Source: Rhodobacter sp. (lineage in GTDB: Bacteria; Pseudomonadota; Alphaproteobacteria; Rhodobacterales; Rhodobacteraceae). Taken from it: a DNA stretch of 64,000 nucleotides. Position numbers and translations under genes: made by a program. Numbering within the stretch: position 1 is the first letter of the stretch; the number at the start of each line of letters is the position of its first letter. The stretch is from positions 62,001 through 126,000 of the forward strand of contig JASJDP010000002.1 in NCBI GenBank assembly GCA_030065095.1, read 5' to 3'. Under the pieces are notes generated by a model. The model did not search any database, had not been told where the DNA came from, and worked only from the letters and a program-made list of their open reading frames with translations. Shown piece by piece: positions 35,331 to 50,560 of this stretch.

Positions 35331-36743
35331 CTACAATCCCAAGAGCTTCGGCAGGTATTCCAGCCACTCCACCAGCCACCGCAGCTGGTTTGGTAAAAGC
35401 CCGGCAAGGTCCAACAGGATCGCCCCGAGTTGCACATTGAGCGCCGTGGCGATGTTCTTGACCAGTTGCTTGCGTTGTTCGCTGATAACCCCGGATGTCA
35501 GTTCCTGTGCCATCGAAAAGGTCTTATGCGCAATGTTCAACAAGAGGTCCTTCGAGGCCAGATAACTGACCATCGTCGCATCGTCGAGATACTCGCGGAT
35601 GCGTTCGAACAGAGACGGATCGAAATGCTCCGGGTCACTTTCCAACGCCTCTGCGGCATGTTCGAGAATGGCCTCAATGTCTTCCTGGCGCGCCTCGAAC
35701 ACAGGTTCGGTCTCGGCCTCGTCCTTTTTGAATTCGAGCCAGATCGGCAGGTTCGCCGCGATCAGGTTGGCGTGCATCAAGGCCGCCTCCAGATGCCCGA
35801 TCTTTTCCGGTGCGACCTCTTCCAAAACCGGCCTCTCGCGCGAAAACTGGATGCTCAGGGCTTGCGTCCCGGCCCCAAACCTGACCTGATCGAGCTCAGT
35901 GAGACTTGTAGGAAGGCGCAGTAAGAAGCGCTCGACGCCCTTTACCAAGAGCGGGGATTGATTGTCGAGGTTGCCAAAGTTCTTTAAATCTTCGACGGCT
36001 CCATGCAGGTCCTGAAACAATCCGTCGAGTGTCGATTCGTCCAACTCATTTGGCTGGAGTCCAAGCGACAATCCAGTCGCGCCAGCGTCGACCTGATGAC
36101 CGACTGGCGAATTCGGTAGCCCTGGCGCCCCCGTTTGTTCAGCCGGAGCGACCGCCTTCCAAGCGTCTGGGAGGGGTAAGCGACTAGGGAGCTTGGTATC
36201 AGCGTTGCCCAGCATTTGCATATAGTAACGTTTGTCTAAACCCTTTGTCTTTGAAAGGTCGGTTCCACGTACATCTGTATTCTGTAACCGAGAGTATTGA
36301 AGCGAACAATTCTCCATTATTGAATCGCGCAAGTTCGCGTCATCTAATATCGAAGAGAGGATCTCTGATCCAATTAGGATAGTATTTCTTAAATCTGCTC
36401 CAGTAAAATTGACATCATTCAAAGTTGCACCGCTGAGATTTGCTTCAAATAGGTTTGCATTTCGAAGATCCGTCGTTGCCCAAATGAATCTAACGTGCGA
36501 ATTATCTCCTAAATCATCATCCCTTAAAAATTTTGCACCTAAGTCTACTCCGCTCAAATTCGCTCCACTGAGATTCGCACCGCATAATGGTGCCCCATTA
36601 GATTCCCACGAATCTTCGGCGTTGATAAATGCACCAATAATATCAAACCCAGCGAGTTCGGGGCGGAAGTTGTCCCGTTCCCGCCGCGCGTTCCACGCCT
36701 CGACGCCTTCCAGCAGCCAGTCCAGATGTTTCGGGTTGCCCAT
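35331..36743 (-). CDS. Pentapeptide-repeat protein with AT-rich N-terminal half
   Basis: 470 residues. Residues 1-40 (NPKHLDWLLEGVEAWNARRE) resemble the leader found on many pentapeptide-repeat proteins. Residues about 75-180 hold A(D/N)LxX repeats (GANLSGANLSGVDLG, FEANLSGATLNDVNFTGADL) forming a right-handed quadrilateral beta-helix. The C-terminal 280 residues are helical and of no family I know. The repeat-coding DNA (about 36200-36660) is far more AT-rich than its surroundings and than the 3' half, suggesting transfer or a chimeric origin. Confidence 0.75.
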   Translation of the reverse strand: MGNPKHLDWLLEGVEAWNARRERDNFRPELAGFDIIGAFINAEDSWESNGAPLCGANLSGANLSGVDLGAKFLRDDDLGDNSHVRFIWATTDLRNANLFEANLSGATLNDVNFTGADLRNTILIGSEILSSILDDANLRDSIMENCSLQYSRLQNTDVRGTDLSKTKGLDKRYYMQMLGNADTKLPSRLPLPDAWKAVAPAEQTGAPGLPNSPVGHQVDAGATGLSLGLQPNELDESTLDGLFQDLHGAVEDLKNFGNLDNQSPLLVKGVERFLLRLPTSLTELDQVRFGAGTQALSIQFSRERPVLEEVAPEKIGHLEAALMHANLIAANLPIWLEFKKDEAETEPVFEARQEDIEAILEHAAEALESDPEHFDPSLFERIREYLDDATMVSYLASKDLLLNIAHKTFSMAQELTSGVISEQRKQLVKNIATALNVQLGAILLDLAGLLPNQLRWLVEWLEYLPKLLGL

Positions 36744-36840
36744 CACTCGTACCCTTCTACCCCGCGCCACTCTAGGGCGCGGCGGGGCAGGGGTAAACGC
36801 CTGTTAGGAGACCACCATACGGGCTATTAACCAGGGGAAA

Positions 36841-36894
36841 TCCGACGACTCCGGGTCCGATGGAAATCCGACGGAAGTCCGATAAAACTCCGAC
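36841..36894. repeat. Helically phased TCCGAY repeats upstream of the pentapeptide gene
   Basis: TCCGAC/TCCGAT occurs at 36841, 36856, 36867, 36878 and 36889. The last four are spaced exactly 11 bases apart, about one DNA turn, with GGAA between the second and third pairs. The array lies about 100-150 bases upstream of the pentapeptide gene start and just beyond the multicopper oxidase stop. It may be a protein-binding iteron set. Confidence 0.5.
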
Positions 36895-36926
36895 CCCCGG
36901 TCTCCCCGCCATTTCAGCGCGTTAAC

Positions 36927-38330
36927 CTACGATTCGGCGACTCGCACCCAGGTCATCATCCCCGCCGCCTGATGCGCCAGCATGTGGCAGTGGAACATCC
37001 AACTCCCGGGGTTGTCGGCGACGAAGGCGATCTCGACCGTCTGGCCCCGGTCCATCAGGACCGTGTCCCGCGCCGGCCCGGTTCCGGCCTCGCCGACCAC
37101 GTGAAAATGATGCCCGTGCAGATGCATCGCATGCGGCCAGGCGGTGTCGTTGACCAGTTTCACCCGCACCGTCTCGCCCCGCGCCGCCTCGACCAGCGGC
37201 GCCTCGGGCATCCCCGCAACGCCGTTCAGCGCCCAGGCAAAGCCGTTCTCCACCAACTCGCGCATGCCCACGGGTCCGCCCATATGGCCACCATGCCCGC
37301 CGTCGTGCCGCATGCCGATCCGCGCCTCGGCCAGACCGCCCATTGCGCCGCCCTCCATCCGTAGATCGACAGCCCGCGCCCCGGAAAGTTCAAGTGGTTC
37401 CAACCGGTTGGGCGGCAACGCCGCCGGGGCCGGGCGCGCGACGGCCGACGCCGTGCCGGTTACGTTGAACGTCGCCAGGGCATAGCCTCCATCACGCTCT
37501 TCGCTCACCAGATACGCCGGTTCGCCGGCCTCGGCCGTCACATCCAGGATCAGATCCGCCCGCTGCGCCGGTCCCAGCACAAGATCCGCAAACGGCTCCG
37601 GCACCGCCAGGGGCATCCCGTCGAGAGCCACCACATGGCCCGACAGCCCCAGCGCGCTCAGCCGCAGGACCCGCGCCGAGGCCGCATTGATCAACCGCAG
37701 CCGCAACCGTTCGTTCCGGGCCGCATCCCATTGCGGGTCGCCCTCGCCATTCGCCGTCAGGTAATTCCCCAGCCGCCCGGCATGGGACCCGTCCCGCATG
37801 TTGCCGAAGCCGCCCGCGATCTGCGCGTTCTCGTCAAGGCGCCAGTCGTTGATCGTCAGCGCGATGTCGCGGTCCACTTCCGGCGGCTCGGCCTCTTCCA
37901 CGATCAGCGGCGCCGTCAGCCCGCGCGAAAGCTGTTCCAGCGTGTTACTGTGCGGGTGATACCAGTAGGTCCCCGCATCCGGCACCACGAAGTCATAGAG
38001 GAACTCTCCGCCCGGCGGCACCGCGTCTTGCGTCAGACCCGCGACACCGTCCATCGCGTTGTCGATCCGGATGCCGTGCCAGTGGATCGTCGAGGCCTGA
38101 GGCAACCGATTGACGAACCGCCGCCGGATCCGCGTTCCTTGCGCCACCCTGAGGCCGGCGCCCGGCACCGCGCCGTCATAGGCCCAGACCTCGGTCGGCC
38201 CATATTCGGCGGGCACGATCTGCGCCATCGCCGGGGCGGCCGTGACGGTCGTCTCCGACACTGCGGCAAGCGACGGCCTAGCCGCCAGTGCTGCGGCGGT
38301 TCCGGTCAGAAAGGCGCGTCTGGTGGGCAT
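36927..38330 (-). CDS. Multicopper oxidase, Tat-exported, CueO/laccase-like
   Basis: 467 residues. The N-terminus RRAFLTGTAAALAARPSLAA is a twin-arginine signal. Copper-binding motifs are HWHGIRIDN, WYHPHSNTLEQ, HAMHLHGHHFHVV and MFHCHMLAHQAAGMM, giving one type 1 and a trinuclear centre in a three-cupredoxin fold. A Met/His-rich insert (MRHDGGHGGHMGG) resembles the copper-sensing loop of CueO/CopA. Probable role: periplasmic Cu(I) or phenol oxidation and copper tolerance. A tatABC set lies 6 kb away. Confidence 0.9.
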   Translation of the reverse strand: MPTRRAFLTGTAAALAARPSLAAVSETTVTAAPAMAQIVPAEYGPTEVWAYDGAVPGAGLRVAQGTRIRRRFVNRLPQASTIHWHGIRIDNAMDGVAGLTQDAVPPGGEFLYDFVVPDAGTYWYHPHSNTLEQLSRGLTAPLIVEEAEPPEVDRDIALTINDWRLDENAQIAGGFGNMRDGSHAGRLGNYLTANGEGDPQWDAARNERLRLRLINAASARVLRLSALGLSGHVVALDGMPLAVPEPFADLVLGPAQRADLILDVTAEAGEPAYLVSEERDGGYALATFNVTGTASAVARPAPAALPPNRLEPLELSGARAVDLRMEGGAMGGLAEARIGMRHDGGHGGHMGGPVGMRELVENGFAWALNGVAGMPEAPLVEAARGETVRVKLVNDTAWPHAMHLHGHHFHVVGEAGTGPARDTVLMDRGQTVEIAFVADNPGSWMFHCHMLAHQAAGMMTWVRVAES

Positions 38331-39368: not shown

Positions 39369-40400
39369 TCACAGGGATGAGGCGCGGCGCAGGATGTCGG
39401 CGGCGATAGCGCTGTCGAGCATGCCTTCGCCGATGTCGAACGGGTCGGGGCGGTTGCGCGCCCCGCGCGTCGCGGGCGTTATCCCAAGCTTGTCCTGGAC
39501 CTCGCGCGGCAGCGCCGGGCTGGTACGGGTATCGACCGTCAGGCTTTCGGTGGCGATGCCCTCGGCAAAGATGAACTCGTGGTTGTCGAACAGAATCTGG
39601 TAATAGTCCACGAACCCGCCGTCGCTGCGCGTGACGGTGTCGCCGTTGACCAGCAGTTCTGCCTTGACCACCACTTCCGAGCGGCCCGCGTTCAACCGGT
39701 CTTCACGCTGGTAGATGAACAGCCTCTGGTTGGGGCTGAGGCGCAGCTCGTTGTAATTGTTCATCGCGCCCGGGGCGAGCACAATGGGGGCAAAGGCGCC
39801 GGTGGCCCGCACGGTATGGTGACCGATCCAGCGGACCTCCTGAATGCCGTTGTCGCGCGTCAACACCCGGTCGCCTATGCGCAGATCCTCGATCCGGCGC
39901 TGCTCGCCGCTGGCCATGGCGATATGCGTGCCACGGGTGAACGAGACGCAGGCCAGCCCGGCGAACTTGGCCCGCGGGGCGTCGGTGTCGACGGTGACCA
40001 GGGCATAGTCGGTGCGCGGGCGCAGGTCGGCGAGCGGCAGAAGATAGGTCGCCGCGATCATCTGGGTGCCGGGTTCAAGTTCGATCATCACCAGCGCCTC
40101 GACGATGGCGCCGTCGGGGGCCATGAAGGTCGCGCAGCAATCCAGGTGCACTTCGGCGCCGACCGACCCCAGCTGAGCGCCCTCGGCCACGGTCAGATGC
40201 GACAGCCCGTCGGCGGCCGACACGCTCAGCCGCCAGGACCGGGCGTTGGGGTCGAGCTGGTAGATATCGTCAAGCATCATCTCGGTGGCATCGGCCACCG
40301 GGTCGCCGAGATTGGCGCCATTCGAGACGCGGAAATCGGCAGCGCGAAACACGCGCAAACCTTGCGCGGTCGGCTGGCAGTCAATTCCTTCGATACTCAT
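39369..40400 (-). CDS. Hint-domain (Hedgehog/intein-type) protein
   Basis: 343 residues. An N-terminal region of about 180 residues without a known fold precedes a Hint_2-type domain that begins at a candidate catalytic Cys (LACVSFTRGTHIAM) and continues EDLRIGDRVLTRDNGIQEVR and RLSPNQRLFIY. Such proteins are abundant in Rhodobacteraceae and often accompany secreted or RTX proteins; their splicing or cleavage activity is unproven. ATG 40400 is used; TTG 40409 is an alternative. A second Hint domain lies in the RTX protein at 48041-50560. Confidence 0.8.
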   Translation of the reverse strand: MSIEGIDCQPTAQGLRVFRAADFRVSNGANLGDPVADATEMMLDDIYQLDPNARSWRLSVSAADGLSHLTVAEGAQLGSVGAEVHLDCCATFMAPDGAIVEALVMIELEPGTQMIAATYLLPLADLRPRTDYALVTVDTDAPRAKFAGLACVSFTRGTHIAMASGEQRRIEDLRIGDRVLTRDNGIQEVRWIGHHTVRATGAFAPIVLAPGAMNNYNELRLSPNQRLFIYQREDRLNAGRSEVVVKAELLVNGDTVTRSDGGFVDYYQILFDNHEFIFAEGIATESLTVDTRTSPALPREVQDKLGITPATRGARNRPDPFDIGEGMLDSAIAADILRRASSL

Positions 40401-40719
40401 AATCGGCAACCTGCTCTATGCTCGTGTGGGTCCGGCTGCACGTCGAGCGGTCTACCCCCATAGACCGCTGCCGGCGCACCCCACCGCCATAGACGGAACG
40501 AGTGTAATCAAGGGGTCATATGCGCGTCAACGAGAACCAATAATCGCCGGGATTTTGGATTGTTTTGTTATTGCGATGGCGACATTCTCAAGGCTTTTCC
40601 GGCATTGGTGCCGGTTGGGGAACGGGCGGGGCCGGAGCGGATTTGATTCGAGGCCTTTCTTACATCCGGGTCCGGTGATAGCCCTTGCCCGGTCACGAAT
40701 ATCTGCAGGAGGCGGAGAC
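40401..40719. promoter_or_regulatory. 319-bp divergent intergenic region (Hint protein / SDR)
   Basis: Must hold promoters for both flanking genes; none is clear by eye. AGCGGTCTA (40446-40454) and TAGACCGCT (40461-40469) form a perfect nine-base stem with a CCCCCA loop. A partial repeat, CCATAGACGG, follows at about 40488. The hairpin is about 46 bases upstream of the Hint start, in its likely leader. The AGGAGG of the SDR is at 40707-40712. Confidence 0.45.
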
Positions 40720-41640: not shown

Positions 41641-42723
41641 GTGATCGGCACCACAGCACGGCTGAAGATACAGAACATCACCCGGCGCTTTGCCGGCAGG
41701 GCGGTGGTGGACGACATCTCGCTCAAGGTGAGGGCGCGGCAGGTGACCTGTCTGCTTGGCCCCTCGGGGTGCGGCAAGTCCACGACGCTGCGTTGCATCG
41801 CCGGTGTCGACCGTCCGGATCAGGGGCGCATCCTTGTCGATGGTAAGCCGGTTTGCGACGCCTCTGTCAGCGTGCCGCCCGAGGCCCGCTCAATCGGACT
41901 GATGTTCCAGGACTTCGCGCTGTTCCCGCATCTGACGGTGGCCGAGAACGTGGCCTTCGGCTTGTCCGGCAACAGGGCGTCCAAACGTCTGCGGGTCGAG
42001 GAGTTGCTGGAGCGCGTCCATCTCAGCCGATTCGTCGACGACTATCCGCACGAGTTGTCGGGCGGCGAGCAGCAGCGCGTCGCGCTGGCGCGCGCCATCG
42101 CGCCGCGGCCGAAGATCATGCTGATGGACGAACCGTTTTCGGGCCTCGACAACCGGCTGCGCGATGGTATCCGCGACGAGACGCTGGAGATCCTGAAAGA
42201 AGAGGGCTCTGCGGTCCTGCTGGTGACGCACGAACCCGAAGAAGCCATGCGCATGGCCGACGAGATCGCATTGATGCGAGACGGCAAGATCGTCCAGCAG
42301 GGGGCGCCCTACAACGTGTACAACGCGCCGGTGGACAAGGCGGCGGCTGCGTTTTTCAGCGATATCAATGTGATCCGCGGCACGGTGCGGGGCGCGCTGA
42401 CCGATACGCCGTTCGGGCAGTTCCTGGCACCGGGCGTGCCCGACGGGACCGAGGTCGATATCGTGATCCGCCCGCAGCACCTTAAGATCGACTTCGACCG
42501 CGACGGGCGCGGCCCCGACCCGACACCGCAGGACGGTATCGCGGCGCGCGGCGTGGTGCAGCGGGCACGGTTCATGGGATCGGAAAGCCTGGTCGAGTTC
42601 CGCATGGACCACGACCTGTCGATTCTGAAGGCCACGGTGCCATCGGTCTTTCTGCCGAAAATGGGCATGCCGCTGTGGCTGACGATCCGCCGCGACCGGT
42701 GTTTCGTGTTTCCGGCCAGATAG
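41641..42723 (+). CDS. ABC transporter ATPase, FbpC/iron(III)-type, orphan
   Basis: 360 residues. Walker A GPSGCGKST, signature LSGGEQQRVALARAI, Walker B IMLMDEP and switch THEPEEAMRMADE are intact. A C-terminal TOBE-like region (about 245-360) indicates an importer of the FbpC/PotA/UgpC kind. No permease or binding-protein gene is adjacent, so its partners must be encoded elsewhere. GTG 41641 lacks a strong ribosome site. The stop is 13 bases from the convergent avidin gene end. Confidence 0.85.
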   Translation: MIGTTARLKIQNITRRFAGRAVVDDISLKVRARQVTCLLGPSGCGKSTTLRCIAGVDRPDQGRILVDGKPVCDASVSVPPEARSIGLMFQDFALFPHLTVAENVAFGLSGNRASKRLRVEELLERVHLSRFVDDYPHELSGGEQQRVALARAIAPRPKIMLMDEPFSGLDNRLRDGIRDETLEILKEEGSAVLLVTHEPEEAMRMADEIALMRDGKIVQQGAPYNVYNAPVDKAAAAFFSDINVIRGTVRGALTDTPFGQFLAPGVPDGTEVDIVIRPQHLKIDFDRDGRGPDPTPQDGIAARGVVQRARFMGSESLVEFRMDHDLSILKATVPSVFLPKMGMPLWLTIRRDRCFVFPAR

Positions 42724-42736
42724 CCCGCCGGTCCGT

Positions 42737-43231
42737 CTATTCGGAGATCAGGCTGTCCGACATCGCGGTGGTGATCAGCTGAAACGTGTCTTGTCCCTGC
42801 TGGATCTGCCCGCCGCCGCTGTTGATGTAGACGAGATTCCAATCGGTGCGCAGTTCATAACCGGAACCGACGCTTGCAAAATATCCCGTCCATCCCGTGA
42901 TCGACTGGCAATTCGCCGTCGTGTTCGACCAGGCGACCGAAAACGACATCGCGAAGTTGCCAGAGTAATAGTAGCCGCTCAGCGGATAGGGCGTGTTCTG
43001 ACAGCCGGTGCCTGACGCACGATTGATATAGGTGCCCGAGACCAGATAAACGCCCGGCTGGTCCACCGACGGCGTGAAGGAAAACGTGGCGGTGGACCCG
43101 GACTGGTTCTGCCAGCTCGACGTGGACGCGGCCAAGGCCATGCCTGGGTCGCTGGCGTGGCTGTCGGCTGCTGCGGAGTTGGCAAGAACGACCGAAAAAA
43201 GTAGGATCGCGAGGCGGGCGAATATGGGCAT
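42737..43231 (-). CDS. Avidin-family biotin-binding protein, rhizavidin-like
   Basis: 164 residues with a Sec signal peptide (about 1-22, ending SAAA). The mature part aligns by eye with streptavidin and rhizavidin. Counterparts of streptavidin Asn23/Ser27 are Asn42/Ser46 (SWQNQSGST); Tyr43 is Tyr68 (SGTY); Trp79 is Trp101; Ser88/Thr90/Trp92 are Ser110/Thr112/Trp114; Trp108 is Trp131; Asp128 is Asp148 (GQDTF). Streptavidin Trp120 has no match, and Cys77/Cys108 sit where rhizavidin has its disulfide, so a dimer is predicted. GGAG precedes the ATG. Likely secreted or periplasmic. Confidence 0.93.
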   Translation of the reverse strand: MPIFARLAILLFSVVLANSAAADSHASDPGMALAASTSSWQNQSGSTATFSFTPSVDQPGVYLVSGTYINRASGTGCQNTPYPLSGYYYSGNFAMSFSVAWSNTTANCQSITGWTGYFASVGSGYELRTDWNLVYINSGGGQIQQGQDTFQLITTAMSDSLISE

Positions 43232-43363
43232 TGATCTACTCCAGACAAAGGCTCAATAACCTGACGTTAGCACAGCTTTTGCGAGCGTCGGAGCGGAAAT
43301 TCAATCTACCGTAGACCCCCTCCATGAGTTAGGCACACGTTCAAATCCGGGAAACCGCGTCTT
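43232..43363 (-). promoter_or_regulatory. Upstream region of the avidin gene
   Basis: The 132 bases between the WYL regulator stop and the avidin ATG hold the CTGGAGTAG ribosome site (about 43235-43243) and presumably the promoter. No confident -35/-10 pair is seen. The WYL gene is directly upstream on the same strand, so read-through from it is also possible. Confidence 0.35.
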
Positions 43364-44047
43364 TTACATTTTCCCGTCGCGCCGTGTCCGGAAATCCGTC
43401 AGTGTCTTGCCTTGCTCTTCGACGAATAGCGCTGGAAGAACTTCAAGCCTTGAAATACGATCGACTCGTAATACATTGAAATCGTTTGCAAATTCGCACC
43501 AGGCCGTAACTGTCCAGATGCGGCCCCAGTATTCGAGCAGCAACGGGCGGATGGTGCGCCGGGTCTCTTCGCCGTCCAGGGCGCGATACGTGATGTCGAG
43601 CTTCTGTCGGGCGCGGATCGCGGCGCGGATGGACGGCATGTACTGAAACCCGGCAGCCGCATCGGCAAACGGGTATACGGCGAACCCCCATCCGGTGGGC
43701 GGAGCGCTGCGGTCCTCAGGCAGTACGGCGTCGATCTTGGCCGACAGGCTGTGCGCGGCCTGCTTCAGTTCATCGTCAGCGGCCTCGCCGACAACCGCCA
43801 TGCCCAGATGCAGAGCCTCCAACTCGGTCAGGGTCAGGTTCAGCGGGGGCAGGGTGATCGGCGCGGTCATCCTGTATCCGATTCCACGCTCGCCCTCGAC
43901 GGGCACACCGGAGGCGGCAAGCGTGTCCATGTCGCGATAGACGGTGCGCAGCGACACGTCCAGCCGCGCCGCCATGTCGGCGGCACGATGCAGACGTCCG
44001 TCGCGCAGGATCTGGATCAATTCGTACAGGCGATCGGCACGGCGCAT
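43364..44047 (-). CDS. YafY-type transcriptional regulator (HTH + WYL)
   Basis: 227 residues. An N-terminal winged helix (RLYELIQILRDGRLHRAADM, then SLRTVYRDMDTLAASGVPVE) is followed by a WYL-like domain (DITYRALDGEETRRTIRPLL and EYWGRIWTVTAWCE). Such regulators often sense ligands or nucleic acids through the WYL domain. The gene ends 132 bases before the avidin gene on the same strand and diverges from tatA. Targets unknown. Confidence 0.85.
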   Translation of the reverse strand: MRRADRLYELIQILRDGRLHRAADMAARLDVSLRTVYRDMDTLAASGVPVEGERGIGYRMTAPITLPPLNLTLTELEALHLGMAVVGEAADDELKQAAHSLSAKIDAVLPEDRSAPPTGWGFAVYPFADAAAGFQYMPSIRAAIRARQKLDITYRALDGEETRRTIRPLLLEYWGRIWTVTAWCEFANDFNVLRVDRISRLEVLPALFVEEQGKTLTDFRTRRDGKM

Positions 44048-46819: not shown

Positions 46820-47278
46820 ATGTTGCTAAAAACTGCTTGCAAAGCCGCCGCCATCCTTTTGGCCACAGGTGTCACCACCGGGGCCTGGGCCGACGGCCAC
46901 ACGCGATCCGCCCTCGTCGTGGCAGAAGAGTTCGAGGGCACCGTGATATCTTTCGAAATAAGGGAGGCCCCAAAAGGCCTGCGCAATCTGACCCTGACCG
47001 TATCCGGCCCGAACGAATTCTCCGCCACCTATTTTTCCGACGACGCGGCCCTCAAGATCGACCTGCGCGACTATGGCAGGCCGTTCGACGGCGCTTACCG
47101 TTACGACATAACGGCCGCGACCGGCGCGCGAATCGAGATCAATACGCCCATCGACGAGAACGGACGTGCCGGCACTGCGCGCAACCAGGTGCTGGTTCCG
47201 GTATCGGTCGACGGCAATTTTGTGATCCGCGACGGTGAGATCGTGAGCGTGGACAAAGACGAGAAAGAAGACGGCTAG
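46820..47278 (+). CDS. Periplasmic hypothetical protein, tandem paralogue A
   Basis: 152 residues with a Sec signal peptide (about 1-25, ending GAWADG). The mature beta-rich domain (LRNLTLTVSGPNEFSATYFS, then DYGRPFDGAYRYDITAATG) matches the following gene in order and spacing, so the two are paralogues. It ends with an acidic/basic tail DKDEKEDG. ATG 46820 follows a purine-rich GGGAGA. No family recognised. Confidence 0.7.
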   Translation: MLLKTACKAAAILLATGVTTGAWADGHTRSALVVAEEFEGTVISFEIREAPKGLRNLTLTVSGPNEFSATYFSDDAALKIDLRDYGRPFDGAYRYDITAATGARIEINTPIDENGRAGTARNQVLVPVSVDGNFVIRDGEIVSVDKDEKEDG

Positions 47279-47417
47279 GCCGCCAGCCCCCGGTTGAAGG
47301 TGCGCGGCCCGTTCCGCCATCCCCGCAGCTTTGAGTTGCCCAAATGGCGCTTTCAGCCTAGGGTTTGCCCGGGAAAGATCCGTTCCGTCAAATTGGTTCG
47401 AAACGAAGGAGTTTTTC

Positions 47418-47972
47418 ATGTTCAGAGCTTTTGCGATCGCCTTGGCAGCGCTCGGCGCCAGCGTCGGAGGCGCCCAAGCTATCGAGATCAGCGATGGAGA
47501 TATCGTCGTTAAGCAGCTTTCGTCGGGAACGCGTCTCGGCTTCGAGCCCGTCAAGTTCCCCGATGAGGTGCGCGGCATAACCATTCGGATCGAGGGTCCG
47601 GAGAAATACGAGGCCATGGTCTTTTCCGGAAATCGCCTGCCCGAGGTCGAGTTGACCAAGTTCGGCAAGGTGACCGACGGCGAATATCACTACGAGATCA
47701 CCGGCGGCACCAGCGAAAGAACCTTGCGGAAAGAAAAGCTGAACAACGGCCGGGGAGAGGACGATCCATCGGTCTACCGTTTCGGCAGCTTCGCCTTGGG
47801 CGGCAAGATCTTCGTCAGACGCGGCGGAATCCTCGAATTCGAGCAGATGGTCGAGAAGGGCAGCGAAGAGACGATCCCGGGTAAGGAGGTCGACGACGTC
47901 GACGAAGGTTACGAAGAGCCGAAAGACCCCGGTGGCGAGCCCAAGGAAACCAACGACACGGACAAAGGCTGA
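47418..47972 (+). CDS. Periplasmic hypothetical protein, tandem paralogue B
   Basis: 184 residues with a Sec signal peptide (about 1-20, ending GGAQA). The core (VRGITIRIEGPEKYEAMVFS, then KFGKVTDGEYHYEITGGTSE) is homologous by eye to paralogue A. A strongly acidic tail of about 35 residues (EVDDVDEGYEEPKDPGGEPK) follows. ATG 47418 has AAGGAG nine bases upstream. The acidic tail could bind metal or stay disordered. Confidence 0.7.
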   Translation: MFRAFAIALAALGASVGGAQAIEISDGDIVVKQLSSGTRLGFEPVKFPDEVRGITIRIEGPEKYEAMVFSGNRLPEVELTKFGKVTDGEYHYEITGGTSERTLRKEKLNNGRGEDDPSVYRFGSFALGGKIFVRRGGILEFEQMVEKGSEETIPGKEVDDVDEGYEEPKDPGGEPKETNDTDKG

Positions 47973-48040: not shown

Positions 48041-50560
48041 TCAGGCGGCACTTGTCGAAGCCGTGTCCACCCGGCGTAGCGACAGCTGTTTAAGCACCTC
48101 GCGTCGCTTCAGATAAGGCCGCGCGGGGGGGCCGTAAGCCTTGGTCAGCGGCTGGTCTCCCAGGCCCGGAACCGCGGCCTTGATTTCCCTCACGATCCGC
48201 TCGGGAAACATCTTCAGGGATTGCGGACCCGGATAGAAACTCTCGGTCGCGGCGCCATTGGCAAAGATCACCTGATGGCGGGCGAACATCAAATGGGTAT
48301 AGGTCACACGCTTCTTGCCCTGTGCAATCCGCACCGGACCCGCGATCTCGGCCAGATGCTTGGCGCGGGCGAGCGCCTCGTCCGCCATGCCGTGCGCGTC
48401 GCCCACCAGCATTGCGTGCTGAGGCGAGACCAGCAGCGACGCATAATTCCCCAGAACTCCCGCGGGGATCAGCACCGGTTTGTGGTCTGGCTGCGCCAGC
48501 AACTCTCGCGGCCCCAACATGCGCCGGCCGATCCACAGGATGTCCTCGGCGGGCCCGTCCAGCGTGGTCACCCGATCCCCGATCTTCAGGGTTTCGACCG
48601 GCACGTCGCCCCCGGGCGTGCGAATCAGCGTCCCGTCGGTAAAACACGGCACCCCTGCATCGTTCAGCGCCTGCGCGCCGGTCACCTCGGCCGGGGCGAC
48701 GCCCTGCAACACGACGCTTTCGCCGTTCGGAAAGGTCAGCAGCGCGTTGCCCGACCCATCGTCGCTGACCACCACATCCCACGCATCGACCGGGTTGCCG
48801 CCCGCGTCGGTTAACCCGCTGACGTCCAGCTGGTCGTTGAACGCGCCGTCGCCGTCGTCGTCGCCGGTGTCGAAATCGGTGATGACGTCGGCGCCCGAGC
48901 CGTCGGCCAGCACGAACACATCGCTGCCGCCGCCGCCGGTCATCGTGTCGTCGCCGGCGCCCCCGTCGATGGTGTCCTGGCCAATGCCCGCGTCGATCAC
49001 ATCTGCGCCGTCGCCGCCCGCAAGGCTGTCGGCATCGCCAGAGCTGGGATCTACGATTGAATCGAAGTAGATATCGCTTAGAAAGATCGCTTGTGTGCCG
49101 TTCAGTCCGTTGGAGTAGATCACCTCGATCGTCGCAACGGGCCCGGCGATCTCGACCAGTACCGAGCCGTTGGCGTCCTGCGGATCGTCAAGCGCCCCAC
49201 CAGCGGTAATTGTATTGCCCGCCACCGTGTCGTCGCCTGCGGGCGTCAGCGTCACAGCGACCGCCTGACCATCCTCGTCATAGGCGTTGACGGTGATGAC
49301 GTCCTGATGGTTCCCCGCGAAGAAATCGACGTCTTGGATTCGGAACGAGACGTTTTCGACCTCGTTCTGCATGCTGCTGCCGGCAGTGGCGGCAAAATCA
49401 ATGGTTGTCGTCGACGTTGCCGCGTCGCCGTCACCGTAGAGCCGCACCATCGAATTTGGATCAAAGCTCTCGCCGCTCGCGACATAGCCGGTATCCGACG
49501 TTTCTATGTTGAAGGTCGGAGTGTTGTTGCCATCGTCGGTGAAGGCGACGGAGACCTCGATATCACCGGTGACCTGCGTAAACCCGGCGGAAACATCTGC
49601 CCCATCGGCACCCTCGGCGCTCCAGTCGAGGAATTCGGTGCCGGCCGTCGGCGGGGTGGCGTCATTGCCTAGGATCGTATCGTTGCCGTCGCCGCCCAGC
49701 ACGGTATCGTTGCCGTCGCCGCCCTGCAGGCTGTCGTTATCCGCGCCGCCCTCGATCGAGTCGTCGCCCGCGCCACCGACGATCGTATCGTTGCCCGCTT
49801 CGCCGTAGATCGTGTCGTTGCCGTCGCCGCCAGAGATCCGGTCGAGCGATCCCGCCCCGGAAAAGTCGCCGTCGTCGCCATAGATCAGGTCGTCGCCGGT
49901 TCCGCCGTCGATGGCGTCGGTGCCGGTGCCGCCGAATACGGTGTCTGCGCCAAGACCGGCAGAGACATTGTCGTTGCCCGCGCCCGCCTCGACCCAGTTG
50001 TTGTTGCCGTCCGCCCCGCCGCCGAACCCGTCGTCGATCTGGTCGTTCTGCGGGTCGCCGGTATAGCTGGCGTTGATGACGTCATTCCCGGCAGTGCCCG
50101 ACACGATGTGATCGGGTGCGTCGTAGTCGGCATAGGTAAAGACGGGATCGCCCGCGCCGTTGTTCGGCGTCGTGTCGAAGGCCAGTGTCTGATAGATCCG
50201 CCCGGCGACAAGCTGCATCTCCGACAGCGTATAGTATCCGGTCAGCGGACCGGCATTGATCCGGAACGTCACGACTTGAAAGACGTCGCCGGTGACCGTG
50301 TCCTGCAGGGTCCAGCTTTCCTCGGCGTAGACCTGCGTACCGCTGCTCGAGGTTCCGTTCAGCTCGACATATGCGGTCGCGGTTTCGCCGCCCGACGCCG
50401 TCTCGTCCAGTGTCAGGCCATCAGAGCCCGCCTCGTTGTCGGTGATCGTCGCCTTGCCGAGCGCGTCGCCCGGTCCGGTCCAGGTCGCCGTGCCGTTGAC
50501 GGTCTGGCTGAGAATGAAATAGGGGTCGGCATTGTAGAAGCGGACGTTGTGATCAGGCAT
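48041..50560 (-). CDS. RTX calcium-binding protein with C-terminal Hint domain
   Basis: 839 residues. Residues about 150-300 and 510-570 hold GGxGxDxUx nonapeptides ([34 protein letters not shown]), which form calcium-loaded beta-rolls. Between them is a beta-rich domain. A Hint_2-type domain occupies about 639-780, beginning at Cys639 ([19 protein letters not shown]) with [13 protein letters not shown] proteins normally leave by type I secretion, but the usual C-terminal secretion signal position is occupied by Hint here. ATG 50560 opens with [17 protein letters not shown]. Confidence 0.85.

Follow-up and report, generated by a model that had tools for sequence, protein, structure and literature searches.

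A hoefavidin-type avidin gene in a predicted biotin auxotroph of the Rhodobacteraceae

We report an avidin gene in a 64,000-nt stretch of Rhodobacter sp. DNA (hereafter the window). Judged by its sequence matches, the encoded protein is a hoefavidin-type avidin, real at the family level and of a kind that is already known. On balance we favour the reading that this dimeric-type avidin is secreted (periplasmic or extracellular), where it captures and conserves scarce biotin for an auxotrophic host. The case offers a favourable natural setting for weighing two hypotheses on what bacterial avidins are for, storage and competitor starvation: it combines what looks like a single clean insertion with an apparent biotin auxotroph, a sister species that has no avidin, and an uptake operon of a known kind. 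For protein engineering it adds one more avidin of the dimeric type, whose tail is probably self-binding.

The gene is a minus-strand open reading frame running from an ATG to a stop codon, and its 164-residue product begins MPIFARLAILLFSVVLANSAAADSHA (see Table 1 for all features of the locus). An earlier note on this DNA had placed a 164-residue avidin at exactly these coordinates (with the strand left unstated) and had proposed a search against the Pfam avidin family. This search gave a significant match to PF01382 (37.9 bits where 24 are required, E 2.6e-9), with the contact residues aligned. Among all PDB sequences the best match is hoefavidin (4z6j, E 6.7e-50), followed by rhizavidin (3ew1, E 5.1e-34) and then by afifavidin, agroavidin, wilavidin and shwanavidin; streptavidin is found far lower (about 1e-4 to 1e-6). 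Given the E-values of the PF01382 and PDB matches, a chance match to the avidin family is excluded. The NCBIfam streptavidin model NF047623, which carries an equivalog cut-off, was not passed (34.4 of 300 bits). Identity amounts to about 59-60% with hoefavidin and about 50% with rhizavidin. In an 11-row tree hoefavidin is nearest by path, though on an unsupported branch, and overall support is too poor to show a donor. The description as rhizavidin-like in the earlier note thus stands as far as the dimeric type of bacterial avidin is concerned, but the closest known protein is hoefavidin, whose C-terminal tail it shares.

Table 1. Features of the avidin locus (positions in the window; strand as + or -).
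Feature	Position	Strand	Evidence or remark
ABC transporter ATPase (TOBE_2 domain), conserved flanking gene in convergent orientation	41641..42723	+	Ends 13 bp from the avidin stop
684-bp segment absent from the sister species	42716..43399	.	Junction sequences and gene order; contains the avidin gene plus the final codons of its two neighbours
Avidin gene, hoefavidin/rhizavidin type, 164 aa	42737..43231	-	Matches to PF01382 and hoefavidin (E-values in the text); eight-stranded model
C-terminal tail SDSLISE, codons 158-164, like hoefavidin SESLLTE	42740..42760	-	Alignments
Putative Sec-type signal peptide MPIFARLAILLFSVVLANSAAA, codons 1-22	43166..43231	-	Read by eye; the crystallised hoefavidin chain starts at matching residues
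GGAG, likely avidin ribosome-binding site	43239..43242	-	Sequence
WYL-domain HTH regulator, conserved flank	43364..44047	-	86% identical in the sister species; orthologues beside tatABC in avidin-free relatives

An AlphaFold2 model, built on an alignment of six sequences and of modest confidence (mean pLDDT 63.7, with low-confidence regions at residues 1-33 and 96-106), contains exactly eight strands, all of them within residues 36-154. With this model Foldseek placed hoefavidin on top (4z6j, E 6.2e-13), followed by afifavidin and rhizavidin (3ew2, E 5e-11). VIA-align yielded Z-scores of 15.4 for the hoefavidin-biotin complex, 15.2 for the rhizavidin-biotin complex and about 12 for streptavidin. 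The structure prediction suggested beforehand thus results in an eight-stranded model that matches the biotin complexes of hoefavidin and rhizavidin, and neither of the contrary outcomes named at the time (no significant family match, or a fold other than an eight-stranded barrel) was observed.

Alignment with streptavidin, hoefavidin, rhizavidin and others shows that N42, S46, Y68, W101, S110, T112, W114, W131 and D148 are invariant, corresponding in this order to N23, S27, Y43, W79, S88, T90, W92, W108 and D128 of streptavidin. The earlier reading that nine biotin contacts are kept by position is borne out for all nine, and from the family and these residues the protein is predicted to bind biotin. 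No tryptophan is present in the stretch around streptavidin Trp120 (the L7,8 region), which agrees with the claim that an equivalent is missing. In rhizavidin, hoefavidin and afifavidin both cysteines occupy the alignment positions of Cys77 and Cys108, and the pair is invariant in the dimeric set, confirming the proposed match to the loop cysteine pair of rhizavidin (the Cys77-Cys108 bond itself being a prediction). In rhizavidin, shwanavidin and hoefavidin a disulfide between L3,4 and L5,6 has been tied to the closed loop of dimeric avidins (PMC5398887). At the N-terminus, the signal peptide would be cleaved after AAA. The C-terminal tail, whose likeness to hoefavidin had escaped mention before, keeps four of its seven residues identical and the other three conservative. 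In hoefavidin the tail acts as an intrinsic self-ligand in the biotin pocket (PMC5398887), and both dimers and octamers were observed for a hoefavidin variant (PMC5931992). By analogy, the tail found here is a probable intrinsic ligand of the apo pocket.

Comparison with the known avidins shows where the protein fits. Hoefavidin of Hoeflea phototrophica (4z6j, 4z28, 6rtq) is alike across the mature chain (N-terminal lead and C-terminal tail included), in the cysteine pair, the contacts and the lack of a Trp lid, and it gives the best fold match; it differs in host family and in the three tail changes. Rhizavidin (Rhizobium etli p42d; 3ew1, 3ew2) has the pocket and the loop cysteines in common and is likewise encoded by a stand-alone gene in a biotin-auxotroph host, but it lacks the longer strand 2-3 segment (about residues 52-63 of the window avidin) and ends in NKSLLKD. 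Moreover, its gene is located on a conjugative plasmid, whereas the window avidin lies beside a tatABC block on a 161-kb contig. Afifavidin (Afifella; 6hdv) is again of the dimeric type, with about 46% identity, the cysteine pair and a host without bioB above the cut-off, but it has the tail KETPKM and a shorter strand 2-3 region. Tetrameric streptavidin shares the contacts only by position; in contrast to it, the window avidin has no Trp120 equivalent, carries the loop cysteine pair and falls below the NF047623 cut-off.

Of 395 genomes sampled from the family, three have PF01382: the window genome, G327 with a short avidin of a different type, and G322 with one of an extended type. In the order (391 genomes), a profile of the dimeric type picked up the window genome and, besides it, only a single avidin that was weak and different; a sample of the class added four others, of which G614 is of the same type. 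These rarity figures are valid for the sampled genomes. Using narrow search patterns, 15 avidin loci were found in a collection of named genomes, nearly all of them rhizobial. The 'extended' avidin of G322 (L003:1036-2052, minus strand, 338 aa) occurs in a host with bioB and resembles the Extended clade of PMC8033661. The avidin of G614 (L032:1369-1836, plus strand) is hoefavidin-like and has the same longer strand 2-3 region, without the tail; in that genome bioB and bioD are not above the cut-off and BioY is present.

Beyond the WYL regulator follow tatA, tatB and tatC and then a gene for a DUF815 ATPase. The earlier note had spoken of an accessory stretch below a WYL regulator; this holds for the avidin gene alone, as the flanks (WYL, ABC ATPase, tatABC and DUF815 ATPase) are conserved in relatives. 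At the same junction in the sister species (G001), 52 unrelated bp replace the 684-bp segment, and the two flanking genes end in different codons. The gap between the ABC and WYL genes without avidin measures about 30 bp in this species and about 36 bp in another genus of the family (G011), and in three further genomes (G004, G006 and G003) the WYL gene adjoins tatABC with no avidin nearby. Since the sister species and the other genus have the same gene order without avidin, the parsimonious reading is a gain in the window lineage by single-gene insertion. The G+C content is 59.6% for the avidin frame and 51% for the gap upstream of it, against 63-65% for the flanks and 64% for the window. Because orthologues of the WYL gene lie beside tatABC in avidin-free relatives, its position provides no evidence of avidin regulation.

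As to the source of the gene, a phage origin was rejected (no match in viral contigs or phages), and so was a plasmid origin, the plasmid matches coming from rhizobia and relatives and all remaining under 60% identity. The 64,000 nt contain no tRNA genes, and no convincing direct repeats border the insertion. A conserved avidin operon was discarded as well: the window locus has nothing evident in common with the avidin neighbourhoods of R. etli p42d, Afifella and G614. A 15-base inverted repeat (93% complementary) connects 42867-42881 in the avidin gene with 43277-43291 in the upstream gap and may be due to chance.

The window genome (99.57% complete) has no bioA, bioB or bioD above the family cut-off. 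BioY is found at 128.7 bits; the gene run to which it belongs also encodes an ATPase of the ECF type and a T component of the CbiQ family and corresponds to bioMNY. This run lies about 72 kb from the avidin gene, on the same contig of 161 kb. Given the absence of bioA, bioB and bioD and the presence of bioMNY, the host, a marine-type bacterium, is predicted to be auxotrophic for biotin and to import it. BioE was considered as an alternative biotin route and set aside, as it substitutes for pimelate synthesis and not for BioB (PMC12915131). Roseobacter strains without bioFADB are known, and dissolved biotin in seawater ranges from below 1.2 to 700 pM (PMC9561691). Of the 21 family genomes tested (the window genome counted in) 18 have no bioB above the cut-off; with auxotrophy as the family background, it gives by itself no link to avidin. 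Among six tested hosts of this avidin type, too few and too related for a statistical claim, bioB is below the cut-off in five (the window genome, G614, Afifella, Mesorhizobium Z1-4 and Rhizobium CCGE510), the exception being R129_A. No biotin genes adjoin avidin at the locus and no BioR-type box was seen upstream of either the avidin gene or bioM. A BirA-like role of the WYL protein was dismissed, its weak BirA matches reflecting the HTH part only.

The preference for biotin conservation follows from the auxotrophy of the host together with a result obtained in R. etli CFN42, itself an auxotroph: a mutant in ravA (rhizavidin) showed faster decay in biotin-free subculture, which was reversed when either the gene or biotin was supplied (PMC8914248). 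This is the sole genetic test of this avidin clade found in our literature search. The storage role is suggested by analogy with this one study, whose protein shares about 50% identity with the window avidin. With no bioA, bioB or bioD, a secreted biotin trap would be harmful to the auxotroph unless the biotin is recovered.

For biotin conservation the following course may be envisaged. A biotin auxotroph would have gained the dimeric-type avidin as a lone gene, and the protein would be exported to the periplasm or the outside (as the signal peptide, judged by eye, suggests), there to bind scarce environmental biotin, presumably very tightly. Each barrel would take one biotin, with the pocket residues all from its own subunit, and the Cys77-Cys108 disulfide would keep the L3,4 loop closed and stand in for the Trp lid of tetrameric avidins. 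In the apo state the C-terminal tail would probably fill the pockets and link dimers until displaced by biotin. Bound biotin might be released by protein turnover (which is a guess) and the conserved biotin would enter the cell through BioMNY. The release step is hard to explain because of the very low off-rate of avidin and biotin; the storage role, the dimer and the tail binding are all points that we infer. More speculatively, dimeric-type avidins might constitute a module for biotin conservation in alphaproteobacteria, passed on as single genes to BioMNY auxotrophs, the tail competing for the pocket to load and unload picomolar biotin, with the window as a recent acquisition by a Roseobacter-type auxotroph; we consider this generalization doubtful.

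The earlier note had left the choice between sequestering biotin and defence against competitors. Conservation is now favoured (PMC8914248), whereas defence is weakened, as a genome without bioA, bioB and bioD would starve itself. In the latter case released avidin would strip biotin from other microbes or grazers, and the producer would cope by efficient BioMNY uptake or internal stores. The signal peptide is compatible with such a role, streptavidins C1 and C2 inhibit fungi in a manner reversed by biotin (PMC7924230), and defence terms are enriched in the avidin neighbourhoods surveyed in PMC8033661. Nonetheless, the producer would itself have to contend with the trap, the genes beside avidin are ordinary conserved ones with no toxin, export or immunity gene among them, and the rhizavidin mutant result speaks for conservation (PMC8914248), which makes starvation of competitors rather unlikely.

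It might also be argued that the intact gene is a passenger, recently acquired by horizontal transfer, with little or no present role and so far retained. This would suit its absence from the sister species, the few family genomes with PF01382, the G+C content below that of the flanks (and lower still in the upstream gap) and the lack of conserved neighbours across avidin loci. We regard it as quite improbable, however, since the gene and its product, with about 60% identity to hoefavidin, retain all contacts, both cysteines, signal peptide, GGAG and tail; this argues for long selection on the carrying lineage. Finally, the main cellular ligand could be desthiobiotin, biocytin, biotinylated peptides or the tail of another protein, with biotin binding being incidental. 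Hoefavidin and bradavidin indeed take peptide ligands in the same pocket (PMC5398887) and desthiobiotin is present in seawater (PMC9561691); yet every biotin contact is conserved and a cell without bioB is unable to use desthiobiotin, so that we give this reading very little credit.

Some other features of the window deserve mention. Two adjacent small proteins with signal-like N-termini (46820-47278 and 47415-47972, both on the plus strand) have no Pfam or NCBIfam match; both match one gene of the sister species (61% and 32%) and, placed after the DUF815 gene, seem to be a pair of paralogues. The tat/WYL block has on one side a protein of 839 aa with RTX repeats and a Hint_2 domain at its C-terminus (48041-50560, minus strand) and on the other a second Hint_2 protein of 346 aa (39369-40409, minus strand); both are matched in the same region of the sister species. 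G+C falls markedly at one place only in the window (52.5% at 36001-37000), where a pentapeptide-repeat protein is encoded (35331-36770, minus strand).
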